This document shows, piece by piece, positions 27,459 through 49,395 of a DNA stretch of 64,000 nt. Made by a program: the position numbers and the translations under genes. Under the pieces are notes generated by a model. It worked only from the letters and a program-made list of their open reading frames with translations. It made no database searches and was not told the origin of the DNA. The DNA lies in the NCBI RefSeq assembly GCF_000021985.1, contig NC_011901.1, positions 2,986,501 to 3,050,500 of the forward strand. Reading direction: 5' to 3'. Source of the stretch: Thioalkalivibrio sulfidiphilus HL-EbGr7 (GTDB lineage Bacteria; Pseudomonadota; Gammaproteobacteria; Ectothiorhodospirales; Ectothiorhodospiraceae). Numbering within the stretch: position 1 is the stretch's first letter; the number at the start of each line of letters is the position of its first letter.

Positions 27459-28727
27459 TCACTCCCGCTCGATGACCCGCAGCAAGGCCCTGCGCCGTTT
27501 CGACAGCGGCCCGAAGGTTGCCATGACCTCGTTCATCGAATCGCCACGAGCCATCGCATCGAGGATGTCCGCCCAATCCTGCATGATGATCTTCCGCGAT
27601 GCGATGTACTTGGTGTGATCGTAGGGTGCGCGCGACGAATCTTTCTTCCGCTTCGAGTGGGCCAGTTGCAGGTCAACCCGGTTCTCGGGGTAGCTCAACA
27701 AGCCGAGCAGCGTGGTCGCTGTTGAGCGGAAGCCGTGCGAAGAAAACTGTCCACCGTAGCCCATGCGCTCCAACACCTTGTTGAGCGTCGTAGCCGACAT
27801 AACCGTTCCCGGCTTCCTGAAGCCGGGAAACAGCACCTTCCCTCCGCCTGTCAGCGTGTGCAGTTCTTTCAACAGCACGATGGCCTGCTTCGAGAGCGGA
27901 ACGATGTGAGGGTCGCGCATCTTCATGCGCCCCGCAGGAACCGTCCACATCGCACTGTCCAGATCGAACTCGGACCAGTGCGCCTTGCGCAGTTCGGCCG
28001 TGCGGACATAAGTGAGGGCCATCAATCGCAGTGCAATGACAGTGACCCGGTAACCTGCATCATCCACACGGCTCAAGAACTTCGGGATCTCTTGCCACGG
28101 TAGCGGTGGATGGTGTCGAACTCGGGGGCGCTTGACCGACCGTTTCAGCAGCGCCGTCGGATCACTGTCGCAAAGCTCTTCACCCGCCGCGTATGCGAAG
28201 ATTTGGCTGCACAATTGCCTGATCAGGATCGCAACGGTGGGAGCGCCGCGCTCCGCAACATCCTTAATGACGGGGCGCAGGTGAGCAGTCCGGATTGAGC
28301 TGACCGGCAGCTTGCCCACTTTGGGAAAAACATCGTTCTCCAAAGTGCGCTTGACTTGATCGGCGTAACCCTCGCTCCACTGCACGTTGCTCGCCATCCA
28401 TCTGCGAGCCACTGGCTCAAAGGTGTTCTCGTTCTTTTCAAGCTGAGTGGAGATGTTGACTCTCTTCTCCACCACGGGGTGTACGCCCTTCTTGACGAGT
28501 TCCCGCGCGCGATCCCGCTCGGTCCGCGCCGCCTCCAGTGAGACCTGGGGGTACTTGCCGATCGCGTAGATGGCAGGCTTTCCGCCAAGCCGATAGCGGT
28601 AGCGCCACAACTTGCTTCCGCTGGGCGTGACGTACAGAAATAGACTACCCCCGTCCTTGAGCCAGTACGGTTCTTTTTGGGAAGGAATGGTCTCGACCTT
28701 CCTGGCCGAGAGCAGGTTCATGGCCAT
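27459..28727 (-). CDS. int: Tyrosine site-specific integrase of the ICE (P4-type)
   Basis: A 422-residue integrase. The N-terminal DUF4102-like arm-binding domain (about 1-90; KLWRYRYRLGGKPAIYAIGKYPQ split by conserved Gly residues) precedes a core-binding domain. The catalytic domain shows R in YVRTAELRKAHW (about 237), H-x-x-R in SSHGFRSTATTLL (about 330), a further His in LQLAHSKRKK and the nucleophile Tyr in APYDHTKY (Y369). It is complete and is read inward from the right end of the element, which places an attachment site just right of 28727. Confidence 0.93.
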   Translation of the reverse strand: MAMNLLSARKVETIPSQKEPYWLKDGGSLFLYVTPSGSKLWRYRYRLGGKPAIYAIGKYPQVSLEAARTERDRARELVKKGVHPVVEKRVNISTQLEKNENTFEPVARRWMASNVQWSEGYADQVKRTLENDVFPKVGKLPVSSIRTAHLRPVIKDVAERGAPTVAILIRQLCSQIFAYAAGEELCDSDPTALLKRSVKRPRVRHHPPLPWQEIPKFLSRVDDAGYRVTVIALRLMALTYVRTAELRKAHWSEFDLDSAMWTVPAGRMKMRDPHIVPLSKQAIVLLKELHTLTGGGKVLFPGFRKPGTVMSATTLNKVLERMGYGGQFSSHGFRSTATTLLGLLSYPENRVDLQLAHSKRKKDSSRAPYDHTKYIASRKIIMQDWADILDAMARGDSMNEVMATFGPLSKRRRALLRVIERE

Positions 28728-28777: not shown

Positions 28778-28943
28778 TTGCAGCAGATTGGTCTAGCCTT
28801 CACCAGACCATCAAGGAAGTCACATCAATACAAATCAACAACTTACACCTTCTCCATGGAACACGGTGGAGCTTGATGGATGCTAATCGTAGTTATCGAT
28901 CATGAGGATCATGGGTGTGTTCTCATCGAGGACGAATTCCTGC
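28778..28943. other. ICE right-end junction region, attachment site not resolved
   Basis: This gene-free stretch lies between the integrase promoter and the first chromosome-type repeat at 28944. It should contain the attachment site, since the integrase faces inward from here. No tRNA or tmRNA 3' end is recognisable. A small hairpin TGGTCT-N11-AGACCA lies near 28789-28811. The other ICE end is outside the window, so the direct repeat cannot be located. Confidence 0.4.
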
Positions 28944-29412
28944 AATTAACGCAGAGATCGCAAAGACGCAGAGGCCGCAAAGACGATCAGAGATTGTTAA
29001 CCACTCGCTTGATACCGGTCTTGAGGACACGAGTATTGAAGTTGATCAGCAAACCAAGCTTACGGTTAGCCAGCCTCAAATATGTCAGCAACTGCATTGC
29101 ATGCAGAGGCATGAGTTGTTCAACAGATTTCAGCTCAATCAATACACTGTTCTCGACGAGCAAATCGATCCGATAGGCGCAACCAACCACTTCGTTCCTG
29201 TATCTGAGGGCCAAGGGCACTTCAGTTTCAAAAGTCATCCCACGATGTCTGAGCTCCTCACATAGACATTGGTGGTATGCCGACTCCAGGAGTCCTGGCC
29301 CCAGTACACGGTGCACTTCAATCGCGGCACCAATGCAGATGCGGGCAATATCGTTCTCGTGCATTGGCATTCCTTTGCGCCCTCTGCGTCTTTGCGTCCT
29401 TTGCGTTGATCA
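28944..29412. repeat. CGCAAAG-type palindrome enclosing the GxxExxY gene
   Basis: The left arm 28944-28985 contains CGCAGAG, CGCAAAGACGCAGAGG and CGCAAAG units. The right arm 29371-29412 is the complement type (TTTGCG, CTCTGCGTCTTTGCG, TTTGCG). The arms bracket the GxxExxY gene almost exactly: the left arm ends 1 base before its stop codon, and the right arm begins at the base before its start. Two empty relatives of this palindrome lie at 40160-40271 and 49199-49346. Confidence 0.75.
28987..29370 (-). CDS. GxxExxY-family protein (PDDEXK_3-like)
   Basis: A 127-residue protein with the defining G-x2-E-x2-Y motif (GLLESAYHQCL, about 25-32) and a PD-(D/E)xK-like core: Asp in YRIDLLVENSV (about 69) and E-L-K in LIELKSVEQL (about 78). 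A Gln/Tyr-containing helix follows (AMQLLTYLRLANRKLGL). No function is established for the family; a nuclease activity is only suggested by the fold. The ribosome-binding sequence (AGAGGG, 9 bases before ATG 29370) is supplied by the right repeat arm, so gene and repeat form one unit. Confidence 0.88.
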   Translation of the reverse strand: MPMHENDIARICIGAAIEVHRVLGPGLLESAYHQCLCEELRHRGMTFETEVPLALRYRNEVVGCAYRIDLLVENSVLIELKSVEQLMPLHAMQLLTYLRLANRKLGLLINFNTRVLKTGIKRVVNNL

Positions 29413-32369: not shown

Positions 32370-32556
32370 GGTTGCAATGCCTCTGGTGACGAGCCGGGCG
32401 GGCCGGCAAGTGAGTATCTGGGCGTGACGCAGGCTGGGCCGTAGCGCACGCGGAACTGCGCAATTTACCTGAATCGGGCGGAAAACTTAAGCCCTGGGGG
32501 CCGACCGTCGATAGGCCAATACGCCGCGGAGGTCAGGGGATGGCGCCAAAGGCTTT

Positions 32557-32638
32557 GACAGGATTGACATGATTAACAGGATTTAAAATCCATGGACAGG
32601 TTTGCTTTGTAAATCATGTTGATCATGTCAATCCTGTC
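32557..32638. repeat. Palindrome with 9-bp unit arms (GACAGGATT family)
   Basis: The left arm 32557-32584 reads GACAGGATT, GACATGATT, AACAGGATTT. The right arm 32611-32638 is its reverse complement with 2 mismatches over 28 bp, around a 26-base loop. The strict 9-bp period within the arms is obvious. A related right arm lies at 49288-49306. The element is in the gap between divergent rpe and the CopD-like gene. Confidence 0.85.
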
Positions 32639-32743
32639 CAGTCCTTGTCTTTCTCCCGCGCCTCTGCGGAAAATCAACCGCCTTGTTCATCACGCCAGCC
32701 CATGGTTTATGATGCAGGCCACAGAAAAATGAAGGAGTTAGCC

Positions 32744-39373: not shown

Positions 39374-39547
39374 CCTCTCACGGAGCCGTGGAGATCTTGA
39401 AATGGGTTTCTCTGCGTCTCTGCGTCTCTGCGAGAGGACGGGGGTTTTTCAGACGATCAAACCAAAGGCATGATGCTCTCGCGGAGGCGCAGGGGCGCGG
39501 GGAAAAGGCTTTTGATCAGAAATCCCCGTGGCTCCGTGCCGCCGTGA
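39374..39547. repeat. Long imperfect palindrome downstream of bioD (CGTCTCTG type)
   Basis: The left arm (CTCACGGAGCCGTGGAGAT at 39377, then TCTCTGCGTCTCTGCG) is matched in reverse by CGCGGAGGCGCAGGGGCGCG and the far end ATCCCCGTGGCTCCGTGCCG. The arms are only partly complementary. It looks like a diverged member of the CGCAAAG-type palindromes. No coding frame is supported in this spacer. Confidence 0.65.
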
Positions 39548-39572: not shown

Positions 39573-39645
39573 TGTAGGTCGGGCTTCAGCCCGACAGCGC
39601 CGCTTCCAGGACGATCCACCGCGTCGGGCTGAAGCCCGACACACG
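39573..39645. repeat. REP-like doublet (GTCGGGCTTCAGCCCGAC)
   Basis: The 18-bp hairpin GTCGGGCTTCAGCCCGAC at 39578-39595 recurs as its exact reverse complement at 39623-39640, 27 bp away. Two head-to-head REP hairpins form a BIME-like doublet. REP elements of this kind are normally mobilised by RAYT transposases; none is in the window. Confidence 0.85.
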
Positions 39646-39674: not shown

Positions 39675-40076
39675 TCAACCGGCCACGCGCCGCCAGTAGC
39701 GTTCGCTCCAGTAATAAAGCACCGTGGTGTCCAGCACCGGGTAGCTGTCGGCGTAGTCGATACCCCGGGCGGGTTGCTCGATATTGTCCCGCGCTGGATC
39801 CAGGGGGCGCCATTGGGTGTCCCGGGTCTCACCCACTGGTTTGCGCCCCATGCCCTCGTGGCGCCGCTCGGCGGCGCCGAACTCCCGGTAGTTCTGCTGC
39901 GCACGCTCCAGGGACACGGTGTTGGAACCGCCGGGCATGAGGGGAAATCGCAACTGCACCAGGTTGTCCTCCCAGCAGCAGATGGGACAGCGGTGATGGC
40001 TGCCCGGCTGCATGTCGAAGACCTGGTAGCCGCACACGGGGCAGGGAAACTTGGCCTCGCCGAATGAAATCATCAT
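39675..40076 (-). CDS. CPCC-type cysteine-rich protein
   Basis: A 133-residue protein with a zinc-ribbon-like Cys pattern: FPCPVCGYQVFDMQPGSH (about 10-27) and H-R-C-P-I-C-C-W-E-D (about 28-37). This matches the Cys_rich_CPCC domain. The remainder contains GSNTVSLERAQQNYREFGA, typical of the family. ATG 40076 has GGGAGG 6 bases upstream; a longer frame would translate a CGCAAAG repeat (MRSLRLCALALKA) and is rejected. The function is unknown. Confidence 0.82.
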   Translation of the reverse strand: MMISFGEAKFPCPVCGYQVFDMQPGSHHRCPICCWEDNLVQLRFPLMPGGSNTVSLERAQQNYREFGAAERRHEGMGRKPVGETRDTQWRPLDPARDNIEQPARGIDYADSYPVLDTTVLYYWSERYWRRVAG

Positions 40077-40159
40077 CACACACCTCCCGCATCCACCCAC
40101 CCTGACGCCTTCATCAAGGGTAAGCCGAGGGCGCCGTTGCGACAACTTGAAATCAAGTG

Positions 40160-40271
40160 CCTTCAACGCTAAGGCGCAAAGACGCAGAGAACGCAAAAGA
40201 ACAGGTTTTTATTCATCAAAACCTTTGCGCCCTTTGCGCCCTTTGCGTCTTTGCGCCTTTGCGTTGAAGGC
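40160..40271. repeat. Empty CGCAAAG-type palindrome upstream of the CPCC gene
   Basis: The left arm (CAACGCTAAGGCGCAAAGACGC, 40164 onward, then CAGAGAACGCAAAAG) and the right arm 40218-40271 are near-complements. The right arm, read in reverse, shows CGCAAAGG CGCAAAGA CGCAAAGGG CGCAAAGGG units, a period of 8-9 bp. The loop is short and carries no gene. The arms closely resemble those around the GxxExxY gene at 28944-29412. Confidence 0.87.
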
Positions 40272-40292
40272 TTTTCCACATCCCGCGCAAAC

Positions 40293-48015: not shown

Positions 48016-49191
<1,176 letters not shown>

Positions 49192-49198
49192 TCACGGA

Positions 49199-49346
49199 TT
49201 GCCGCAGAGGCGCAAAGACGCAGAGAAATGAGATGACCTGACCGGATTTTCAGGATGTGATCCGTGGTTTCTGAAACCACCTCCTTTCAATCATGTCAAT
49301 CCTGTCATGGATGATTTCCCTCTGCGTCTTTGCGCCTCAGCGGCAA
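49199..49346. repeat. CGCAAAG-type palindrome containing a GACAGGATT-type inner arm
   Basis: Outer arms: TTGCCGCAGAGGCGCAAAGA (49199, continuing CGCAGAG) and the complementary block 49313-49346. Inside, the right part CAATCATGTCAATCCTGTC (49288-49306) is the complement of the GACAGGATT GACATGATT unit seen at 32557. The middle has a GTGGTTTC-TGAAACCAC hairpin. Two families are therefore nested, one inside the other. It lies between the metK stop and the SAH riboswitch. Confidence 0.83.
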
Positions 49347-49395
49347 GACCTGATTTTTGAAGTACCCCGCGGTCAAGCATCCGCGGTTTGTTACG

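Follow-up and report, generated by a model that had tools for sequence, protein, structure and literature searches.

The window, that is, the whole stretch of 64,000 nucleotides analysed here, belongs to one 3.46-Mb contig of the Thioalkalivibrio sulfidiphilus HL-EbGr7 genome (coded G000). Between trpE and trpG it harbours a gene of the GxxExxY family enclosed by a pair of inverted arms; this cassette and its neighbours are composed as follows.

28886-28912, minus strand: 5' remnant of trpG, 27 nt, MILMIDNYD followed by a stop
28945-28982, no strand: left arm, on the downstream side of the gene, composed of a tandem pair of 17-mers similar to ACGCAGAGNNCGCAAAG, inward-reading
28987-29370, minus strand: GxxExxY gene, 127 aa, PD-(D/E)XK nuclease-like (D69, E79-x-K81)
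29373-29410, no strand: right arm, flanking the gene upstream, the left arm's inverse complement; contributes to the purine-rich stretch ahead of the start codon
29427-30917, minus strand: trpE (PF00425, PF04715), upstream neighbour of the cassette

The arms, each 38 nt long and 87% complementary, stand 390 nt apart. When the window was scanned for inverted repeats with sliding intervals of 351 nt (step 40, 1570 positions), the cassette obtained the top score of 29; the runner-up place scored 21, the 99th percentile was 15, and the maxima of ten block-shuffled windows (314 positions each) fell between 14 and 19. The enclosure of the gene in a palindrome, reported in a preliminary description of this DNA, is thereby confirmed. 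The statement that the arms stop within about a base of the gene was slightly generous, the gaps being 4 nt on the stop side and 2 nt on the start side. The right arm does supply ribosome-binding sequence, as had been claimed: the AAAG of AAAGGA, directly before the ATG, comes from it. A gene for a phage-type integrase (27459-28727) lies beside the trpG remnant, so it appears that an island beside the cassette was inserted into the beginning of trpG.

The product of the gene matches TIGR04256 (E=5.1e-43, 146.1 bits, curated cut-off 35) and PF13366 (E=5.3e-44, 149.8 bits, cut-off 22); the Pfam search yielded nothing else except PF03013 below threshold. The PD-(D/E)XK core consists of alpha-beta-beta-beta-alpha-beta elements with an aspartate and an E-x-K motif. 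In the AlphaFold model built with five sequences (pLDDT 78.5, pTM 0.73, the other four of the five models being less confident), the predicted elements follow the PD-(D/E)XK order (helix 29-42, strands 47-57, 60-72 and 76-81, helix 88-100, strand 107-112), and D69, E79 and K81, invariant in the five sequences, are placed in the predicted fold as in PD-(D/E)XK proteins. The E-x-K motif is retained in 54 of 59 loci. Structure comparison led to restriction enzymes, Holliday junction resolvases, a homing endonuclease and XisH, and Foldseek gave no match below 1e-3; since the structural matches are only middling (best Z 6.4), they support the fold class only. The PDDEXK-like core noted earlier thus agrees with the predicted fold and with a catalytic motif retained in most members, and the protein is assigned, as judged from the model, to the PD-(D/E)XK superfamily as a predicted nuclease. 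Weak PADLOC and PHROGs matches were Cas4-like or CRISPR-associated, and a kinship with Csn2, for which the PDB sequence search gave an E-value of about 0.25 only, was regarded as noise. Purifying selection on GxxExxY genes is evident, with dN/dS of 0.05-0.24 in six of ten pairs and dS saturated in the other four.

The flanks of GxxExxY genes were surveyed at 67 TIGR04256 loci, which are the best-scoring matches and not a random sample (the best 30 of the 48 listed matches in 150 genomes of the phylum, all 26 in 40 relatives, four genome-collection loci and eight on plasmids). The 160-nt flanks on the two sides of each gene were compared with each other for inverted repetition; the 67-locus version also took in 30 nt of the gene. 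A score of at least 14 was reached by 49 of the first 59 loci and a score of at least 18 by 42; the corresponding numbers are 7 and 1 for 349 shifted intervals, and 52 and 45 for all 67 loci. Doublets of the word CRCRRAD reading inward on both sides were present at 46 of the 67 loci, outward at one, and at least one inward arm at 58. Among 276 neighbouring control ORFs, a set in which GxxExxY genes were masked, 28 scored at least 14, 11 at least 18, and a single one carried inward doublets on both sides, while none of the 75 small ones (up to 200 aa) showed either a score of at least 18 or such doublets. The expectation that GxxExxY flanks elsewhere carry arms more often than other genes is therefore borne out (46/67 versus 1/276). 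A single inward arm at 46 of the 276 control ORFs, many of them adjoining a cassette, counts against the cassette reading. After grouping by flank homology into 35 independent sites, the first member scored at least 18 in 21 and had inward doublets on both sides in 20. A less favourable control, in which upstream flanks were compared with downstream flanks of different loci and which takes in orthologous loci and shared words, gave scores of at least 18 in 6.3% and of at least 14 in 15.5% of 3422 pairs.

Judged by eye, the arms are built of two to five units with 8-10-nt spacing, the CRCRRAD units being phased at about 9 nt. The arms termed CGCAAAG-type in the preliminary description do recur, but they belong to a wide family of phased CRCRRAK words that differ between gene lineages. 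The same arms surround the GxxExxY gene on Bacteroidota plasmids (Bacteroides finegoldii and Bernardetia); at the Sphingomonas gene one arm is visible, and in Gemmatirosa a complete gene-less palindrome adjoins the gene. An inverted repeat of at least 14 was absent at 15 of the 67 loci, which tells against the cassette reading. Among these are the Sphingomonas gene, the plasmid genes of Persicobacter, Treponema, Fusobacteria and Prevotella, the partial genes L066, L082 and L091, and three (L050, L056, L062) of the 13 loci at the trpD-trpC site described below. That GxxExxY genes are linked to phased inverted arms, and gene-less palindromes to the gene, has strong support.

No GxxExxY relative was confirmed on viral contigs, and among phages the only relative belonged to Halogranum tailed virus 1, at 34% identity and with a single genome behind both records. 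A search of plasmid DNA with the gene-less palindrome gave no match. As regards the trp operon, GxxExxY genes of family f22 lie between trpD and trpC at 13 loci (L043-L046, L049, L050, L052, L054, L056-L058, L062, L070), with both neighbours visible at 11 and trpD alone at two, and others lie between trpE and trpG in the window genus (the window, L077, L087-L089) and in G184 of another family (L085). Because the positions within the operon differ, these insertions are probably separate entries.

A comparable arrangement was encountered in a second family, the four-helix-bundle genes (TIGR02436). All three such genes of G000 stand within inverted arms, and the one tested matches PF05635, the Pfam model of 23S intervening-sequence proteins. 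In a sample of 32 loci, made up of the best 30 of the 45 listed phylum matches together with those of the own genome (L036-L038, L128-L156), 25 scored at least 14 and 18 at least 18, compared with 13 and 1 of 186 shifted intervals. The arm words, about 7 nt by eye (e.g. GGCAGTA, GTGAGAT, ATTCAAA), are of another class: inward CRCRRAD doublets on both sides occurred at none of the 32 loci and one arm at two. The two families therefore share the enclosing architecture, but each has its own class of word.

Bacterial genomes commonly contain short palindromes between genes. In G000 all five GxxExxY matches are enclosed by inverted arms (scores 27-33), and the five genes have five words: CGCAAAG/CGCAGAG, GCAAATNAACGCGAAT, GCGAAGGGCGCGAAGG, CTCTCGCNGAGGCGCAGGGGCGCGGAG and GACAGGATTTACATGATTAAC. 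The 17-mer of the window arms, with up to two mismatches, has 275 matches (146+129) in this genome versus 13 (7+6) for the reversed control. Of 28 sampled arms, counted after L008 and L016, which have the same arms as L007 and L015, had been dropped, 25 had an inverted partner no more than 600 nt away, and in 18 of those the spacer measured 17-29 nt; the common form is therefore a hairpin some 100 bp long that lacks the gene and often has four units in each arm. CACAGAG palindromes are abundant in G000 as well, although its five genes have other arms, which counts against the cassette reading; genes bearing the CACAGAG arm occur in the genus-mates G151 and G152. On the G000 contig C1, at 287344-316801 and 2101734-2106437, CTCTCACGG and CTCTCGCGGAG arms of both orientations are densely clustered, resembling BIME mosaics.

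The abundance of the repeat was compared with the presence of the gene by counting the pattern CRCRRAGNNCRCRRAGNNCRCRRAG, one mismatch allowed, in the 150 phylum genomes. The 25 gene-bearing genomes, of which 12 were counted whatever the match length and one (G001) lies below the family cut-off, contain 356 matches and the 125 genomes without the gene 87; for the reversed control the numbers were 3 and 50. At least four matches occur in 13 of the 25 gene-bearing and 5 of the 125 gene-less genomes (p=1.6e-8), the Fisher figures, like the Mantel figure given below, being inflated by genome kinship. In family f22 alone the corresponding numbers are 12 of 20 and 3 of 15 (p=0.037), a result which depends on the threshold (p=0.006 at 2 matches, 0.089 at 5), and outside f22 the association is weak (1 of 5 versus 2 of 110, p=0.13). 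The 12 gene-bearing genomes with fewer than four matches count against the cassette reading. The prediction that the repeats track the gene thus holds in the overall comparison, with exceptions among the gene-less genomes with at least four matches (G037 with 31, G108 with 14, G005 with 9, G120 with 5 and G095 with 4). G037 and G108 possess many CRCRRAG palindromes and no GxxExxY match, which stands as an unexplained exception. In the case of the two arm types of the L004/L090 site, 82 and 83 copies were counted in G000 and 62 and 141 in G153, both of which have the gene there, and 0 or 1 in G150 (82% complete), G151 and G152. G152 has a gene related to that of L004 (68% identity) whose word is different, which counts against the cassette reading.

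The following palindromes without a gene were delineated in the window.

32557-32638, no strand: gene-less palindrome of GACAGGATTGACATGATT units (GACAGGAT type), the arm type of the GxxExxY gene L005 of the same genome
39374-39547, no strand: mosaic palindrome of two arm types, CTCACGG (CTCACGGAG...) outer and CTCTCGCGGAG... inner
40160-40271, no strand: gene-less palindrome with CGCAAAG/CGCAGAG units as in the window cassette, also in the sister genome G153
49199-49346, no strand: gene-less CGCAAAG-type palindrome whose loop holds GACAGGAT-type arms (TGACCGGATTTTCAGGAT... and ...ATCATGTCAATCCTGTCA)

Three of these had been described before. The empty palindrome at 40160-40271 is real, and so is that at 49199-49346, with the addition that its loop carries arms of another type; the element at 39374-39547, taken for a diverged CGCAAAG palindrome, is instead a mosaic of two other arm types, both of which are those around the GxxExxY genes L004/L090 of the genus. 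Comparison of the window with its genus-mates shows turnover of gene-less palindrome types at orthologous sites. At site 40063-40291 the CGCAAAG palindrome of G000 and G153 corresponds to a TTGTCAG-type array in G150, G151 and G152; at 49175-49382 the three genomes covered (G151, G152 and G153) each have a CGC-type palindrome with other units; and at 32491-32702 the GACAGGAT palindrome of G000 has a different palindrome as its counterpart in G153.

Gene and arms also change together. Protein and arm similarity are correlated (rho 0.41; 986 non-orthologous pairs between genomes, 0 of 999 permutations) among 48 loci, a set which leaves out ten loci scoring under 14 and L039, and part of this correlation may be genome relatedness. 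Concerted evolution was tested on full flanks, not on arms pre-selected by mutual match, leaving out L056 and L062 (trpD-trpC, no inverted repeat at 14) and L085 (trpE-trpG, other family). At the trpD-trpC site (11 loci) the match between a locus's own arms was 263 against 191 expected, above that with the opposite arms of orthologues (0 of 20000 permutations), and at the trpE site (5 loci) it was 135 against 113 (p=0.033).

The trpE block is 95.9% identical between G000 and G153, while the cassette gene between trpE and trpG has only 56% protein identity with a dS of about 3.3, and its arm type differs too. The G000 version groups with that of G152 (69% over 101 residues) and with a G150 remnant (70% over 44), and the version in G153 with that in G151 (78%). 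At L004/L090 the flanking blocks are mostly 85-92% identical, the gene is 73% identical at the protein level with saturated dS, and the arm words differ. For the ordinary orthologue pairs L002/L074, L003/L083 and L005/L092, dS is 0.02-0.09. Since diverged genes and arms lie inside conserved flanks, gene and arms can be swapped together with the site retained, and these comparative data point more to whole-cassette exchange at a site than to demonstrated cut-and-paste. Broken genes within retained arms were found at L087 (G150) and L089 (G152).

In other genera of the family no GxxExxY gene was seen next to trpE at any of 19 trpE loci. At nine of these trpG follows trpE after 5-114 nt, and at the other ten there is other sequence; the nine cassette-free loci are L108, L109, L110, L117, L118, L119, L121, L122 (by eye) and L126. 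The distance is 267-551 nt in the window genus, and the cassette has therefore entered, or been lost from, an intergenic spacer. The site is thus seen with and without the cassette in different genera; no strain pair of the kind which the preliminary description called for was found, and no convincing target-site duplication, the mark of a classical MITE or insertion sequence, could be discerned by eye in the flanks and orthologous sites, where the outer junctions cannot be read base by base because the cassette-free sites come from diverged genera.

These observations are best accommodated by a cassette whose PD-(D/E)XK protein recognises the phased arms and spreads them, in the manner of RAYT-REPIN systems and with an unrelated enzyme, a reading to which we assign a probability of roughly 0.57. 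The gene and its two arms would form one genetic cassette, the 127-aa protein would be a PD-(D/E)XK endonuclease, and the arms would be two to five phased copies (about 9 nt apart, approximately one helical turn) of a short inward-directed word at both ends, which in most of the lineages examined is CRCRRAK. The protein may recognise the word as a duplex array, an extruded cruciform or a hairpin and may cut or nick at the palindrome, whereupon repair would copy the cassette, or the arms alone, into intergenic palindromic sites. The expected outcome would be gene-less palindromes of about 100 bp, whole-cassette swaps at old sites and nested mosaics, with each protein lineage having its own word. 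The preliminary description had suggested a nuclease that moves its own repeat, in autonomous and non-autonomous forms; the gene-arm linkage and the abundant gene-less copies agree with this, and the recognition, cutting, spread and mobility of the cassette are what we infer.

According to the articles concerned, a genome with RAYT systems has several types of repeat, each linked with a gene lineage of its own (PMC3116915), BIMEs are mosaics of alternating orientation (PMC2817692), REPs carry GTAG/CGTC tags (PMC3733652), and the 23S intervening sequence, described as a selfish element, contains a small ORF (PMC4990558). The likeness to RAYT-REPIN/BIME systems lies in the association of one small nuclease gene with a short repeat, in numerous intergenic gene-less inverted doublets, and in several gene-tied types and mosaics; in particular, the window gene is flanked by inverted repeat copies which are also dispersed as gene-less doublets. 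However, the predicted enzyme is of the PD-(D/E)XK type and not a Y1 (HUH) transposase (PF01797), Y1_Tnp genes being located elsewhere, and the arms are phased 8-10-nt CRCRRAK words and not GTAG/CGTC-tagged REPs. As both the enzyme and the tags differ, the cassette was not filed as RAYT-REPIN; no excision intermediate of the window cassette has been seen. With the 23S rRNA intervening sequence it has in common a small ORF in a selfish-type element, as do the four-helix-bundle genes of G000 in their inverted arms (3/3), but the window protein is unrelated to S23, the cassette lies in a protein-coding operon and there is no sign of selection for RNA pairing. PD-(D/E)XK homing endonucleases such as I-Bth0305I share a small fold (3r3p, Z 5.3), and cassette replacement at a fixed site resembles homing; in this case, though, no intron or intein is present, and a dispersed palindrome would take the place of a unique gene site as the target. 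XisH, the fdxN-element excision controlling factor, is likewise matched in fold (2okf, Z 5.6; 2inb, Z 5.5), yet this is a middling match among many restriction-enzyme folds and no sequence relation was shown.

The arms could alternatively be operator or anchoring sites of a self-repressing DNA-binding regulator or a nucleoid or repair factor, the palindromes being a regulon or structural sites kept by the host. A self-regulating repressor with operators would equally yield the gene-arm linkage; the arms often abut the gene, in the window supply part of the ribosome-binding sequence, have regular unit spacing and are kept between trpD and trpC in many f22 genomes. Nevertheless, the replacement of palindrome types at orthologous sites and the nested mosaics fit selfish turnover better than a conserved regulon, and the nuclease residues, needless for a pure regulator, are mostly retained (E-x-K in 54 of the 59 loci), which renders this explanation rather unlikely.

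It is also improbable that the repeats are moved by something else, e.g. RAYT/Y1 transposases, with the GxxExxY gene as a passenger or parasite in existing palindromes. In favour of another mover, Y1_Tnp matches exist in all 11 genomes searched (five in G000), G037 and G108 are rich in palindromes without a GxxExxY match, and G000 lacks a gene matching its own CACAGAG palindromes. On the other hand, no CRCRRAK doublet occurs in any of nine Y1_Tnp stretches (five of G000 and one each of G037, G108, G124 and G025), a count which spans the whole stretch, the reading frame being uncertain for some of the genes, and three of the five G000 stretches have other inverted repeats (score 21-30), two of them GTAG-tagged and REP-like, which serves as an internal control. 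A passenger would furthermore need to be choosy, as CRCRRAD arms are confined mostly to GxxExxY genes (46/67, compared with 0/32 four-helix-bundle genes and 1/276 other ORFs), and gene and arms switch jointly.

A role of the arms in RNA, as a transcript stem protecting or processing the gene in the way of 23S rRNA intervening sequences, would account for both families lying between complementary arms and for the four-helix-bundle member of G000 which matches the 23S intervening-sequence Pfam model. Such a stem should favour arm differences that still allow G-U pairing in the transcript; the arm transitions show no bias, however, 69 being G-U-compatible and 63 incompatible (48 loci), none of the 12 loci tested has an Rfam match, and the window cassette resides in the trp operon and not in rRNA, so that this explanation seems very improbable. 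Chance or an assembly artefact, with low-complexity CGCAAAG words happening to flank the gene, could be invoked because in a repeat-rich genome some ORFs fall between two elements (11 of the 276 control ORFs), but is practically dismissed by the top rank among the 1570 window intervals, the 42 of 59 loci against 1 of 349 shifted intervals and the recurrence in other genomes.

The preferred reading, a cassette whose nuclease-like protein would spread the arms enclosing its gene, would have consequences for a named and widespread family of unknown function. In the open-access literature, as far as its text was accessible, neither a mover for these words nor a link between repeats and GxxExxY, TIGR04256 or PDDEXK_3 was found. 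The arrangement suggests a little-studied kind of selfish DNA cassette, and tying the palindromes to this family provides a testable job for the latter and a candidate enzyme for the repeats. If the reading is true, it would represent a PD-(D/E)XK counterpart to RAYT-REPIN; should the nuclease prove to be the mover of the palindromes, the cassette would be mobile DNA of a new class. More tentatively, GxxExxY proteins might be the founding enzymes of an unrecognised class of minimal mobile elements, in which a nuclease would read a phased-word palindrome, spread gene-less hairpins and home into the palindromes of other lineages while word and enzyme co-evolve, and whose architecture the four-helix-bundle family would have adopted independently with words of about 7 nt; we regard this broader view as possible, with the balance somewhat against it. 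The parallel four-helix-bundle set suggests that the enclosure of a small gene by phased inverted words occurs as a general architecture, and natural protein-word variant pairs would make the recognition code directly testable.

Other repeats were also noted in the window and its genome. REP-type palindromes (GTCGGGCTTCAGCCCGAC) are located at window positions 39578-39595 and 39623-39640, and similar GTAG-tagged repeats flank two Y1_Tnp genes elsewhere in the genome (L170, L171). At the position corresponding to 51886 of the window, G153 (stretch L094) contains a 271-bp insertion with inverted ends CTAGCCCGCATATC, identified by eye and missing from the window, which is a probable MITE. Finally, a DUF2721 ORF of G000 (L101:2311-2907) lies between CGCAAAG-type units and is missing in G153 (L105), where one repeat stretch is left; this difference is a gene gain or loss through recombination between repeats.
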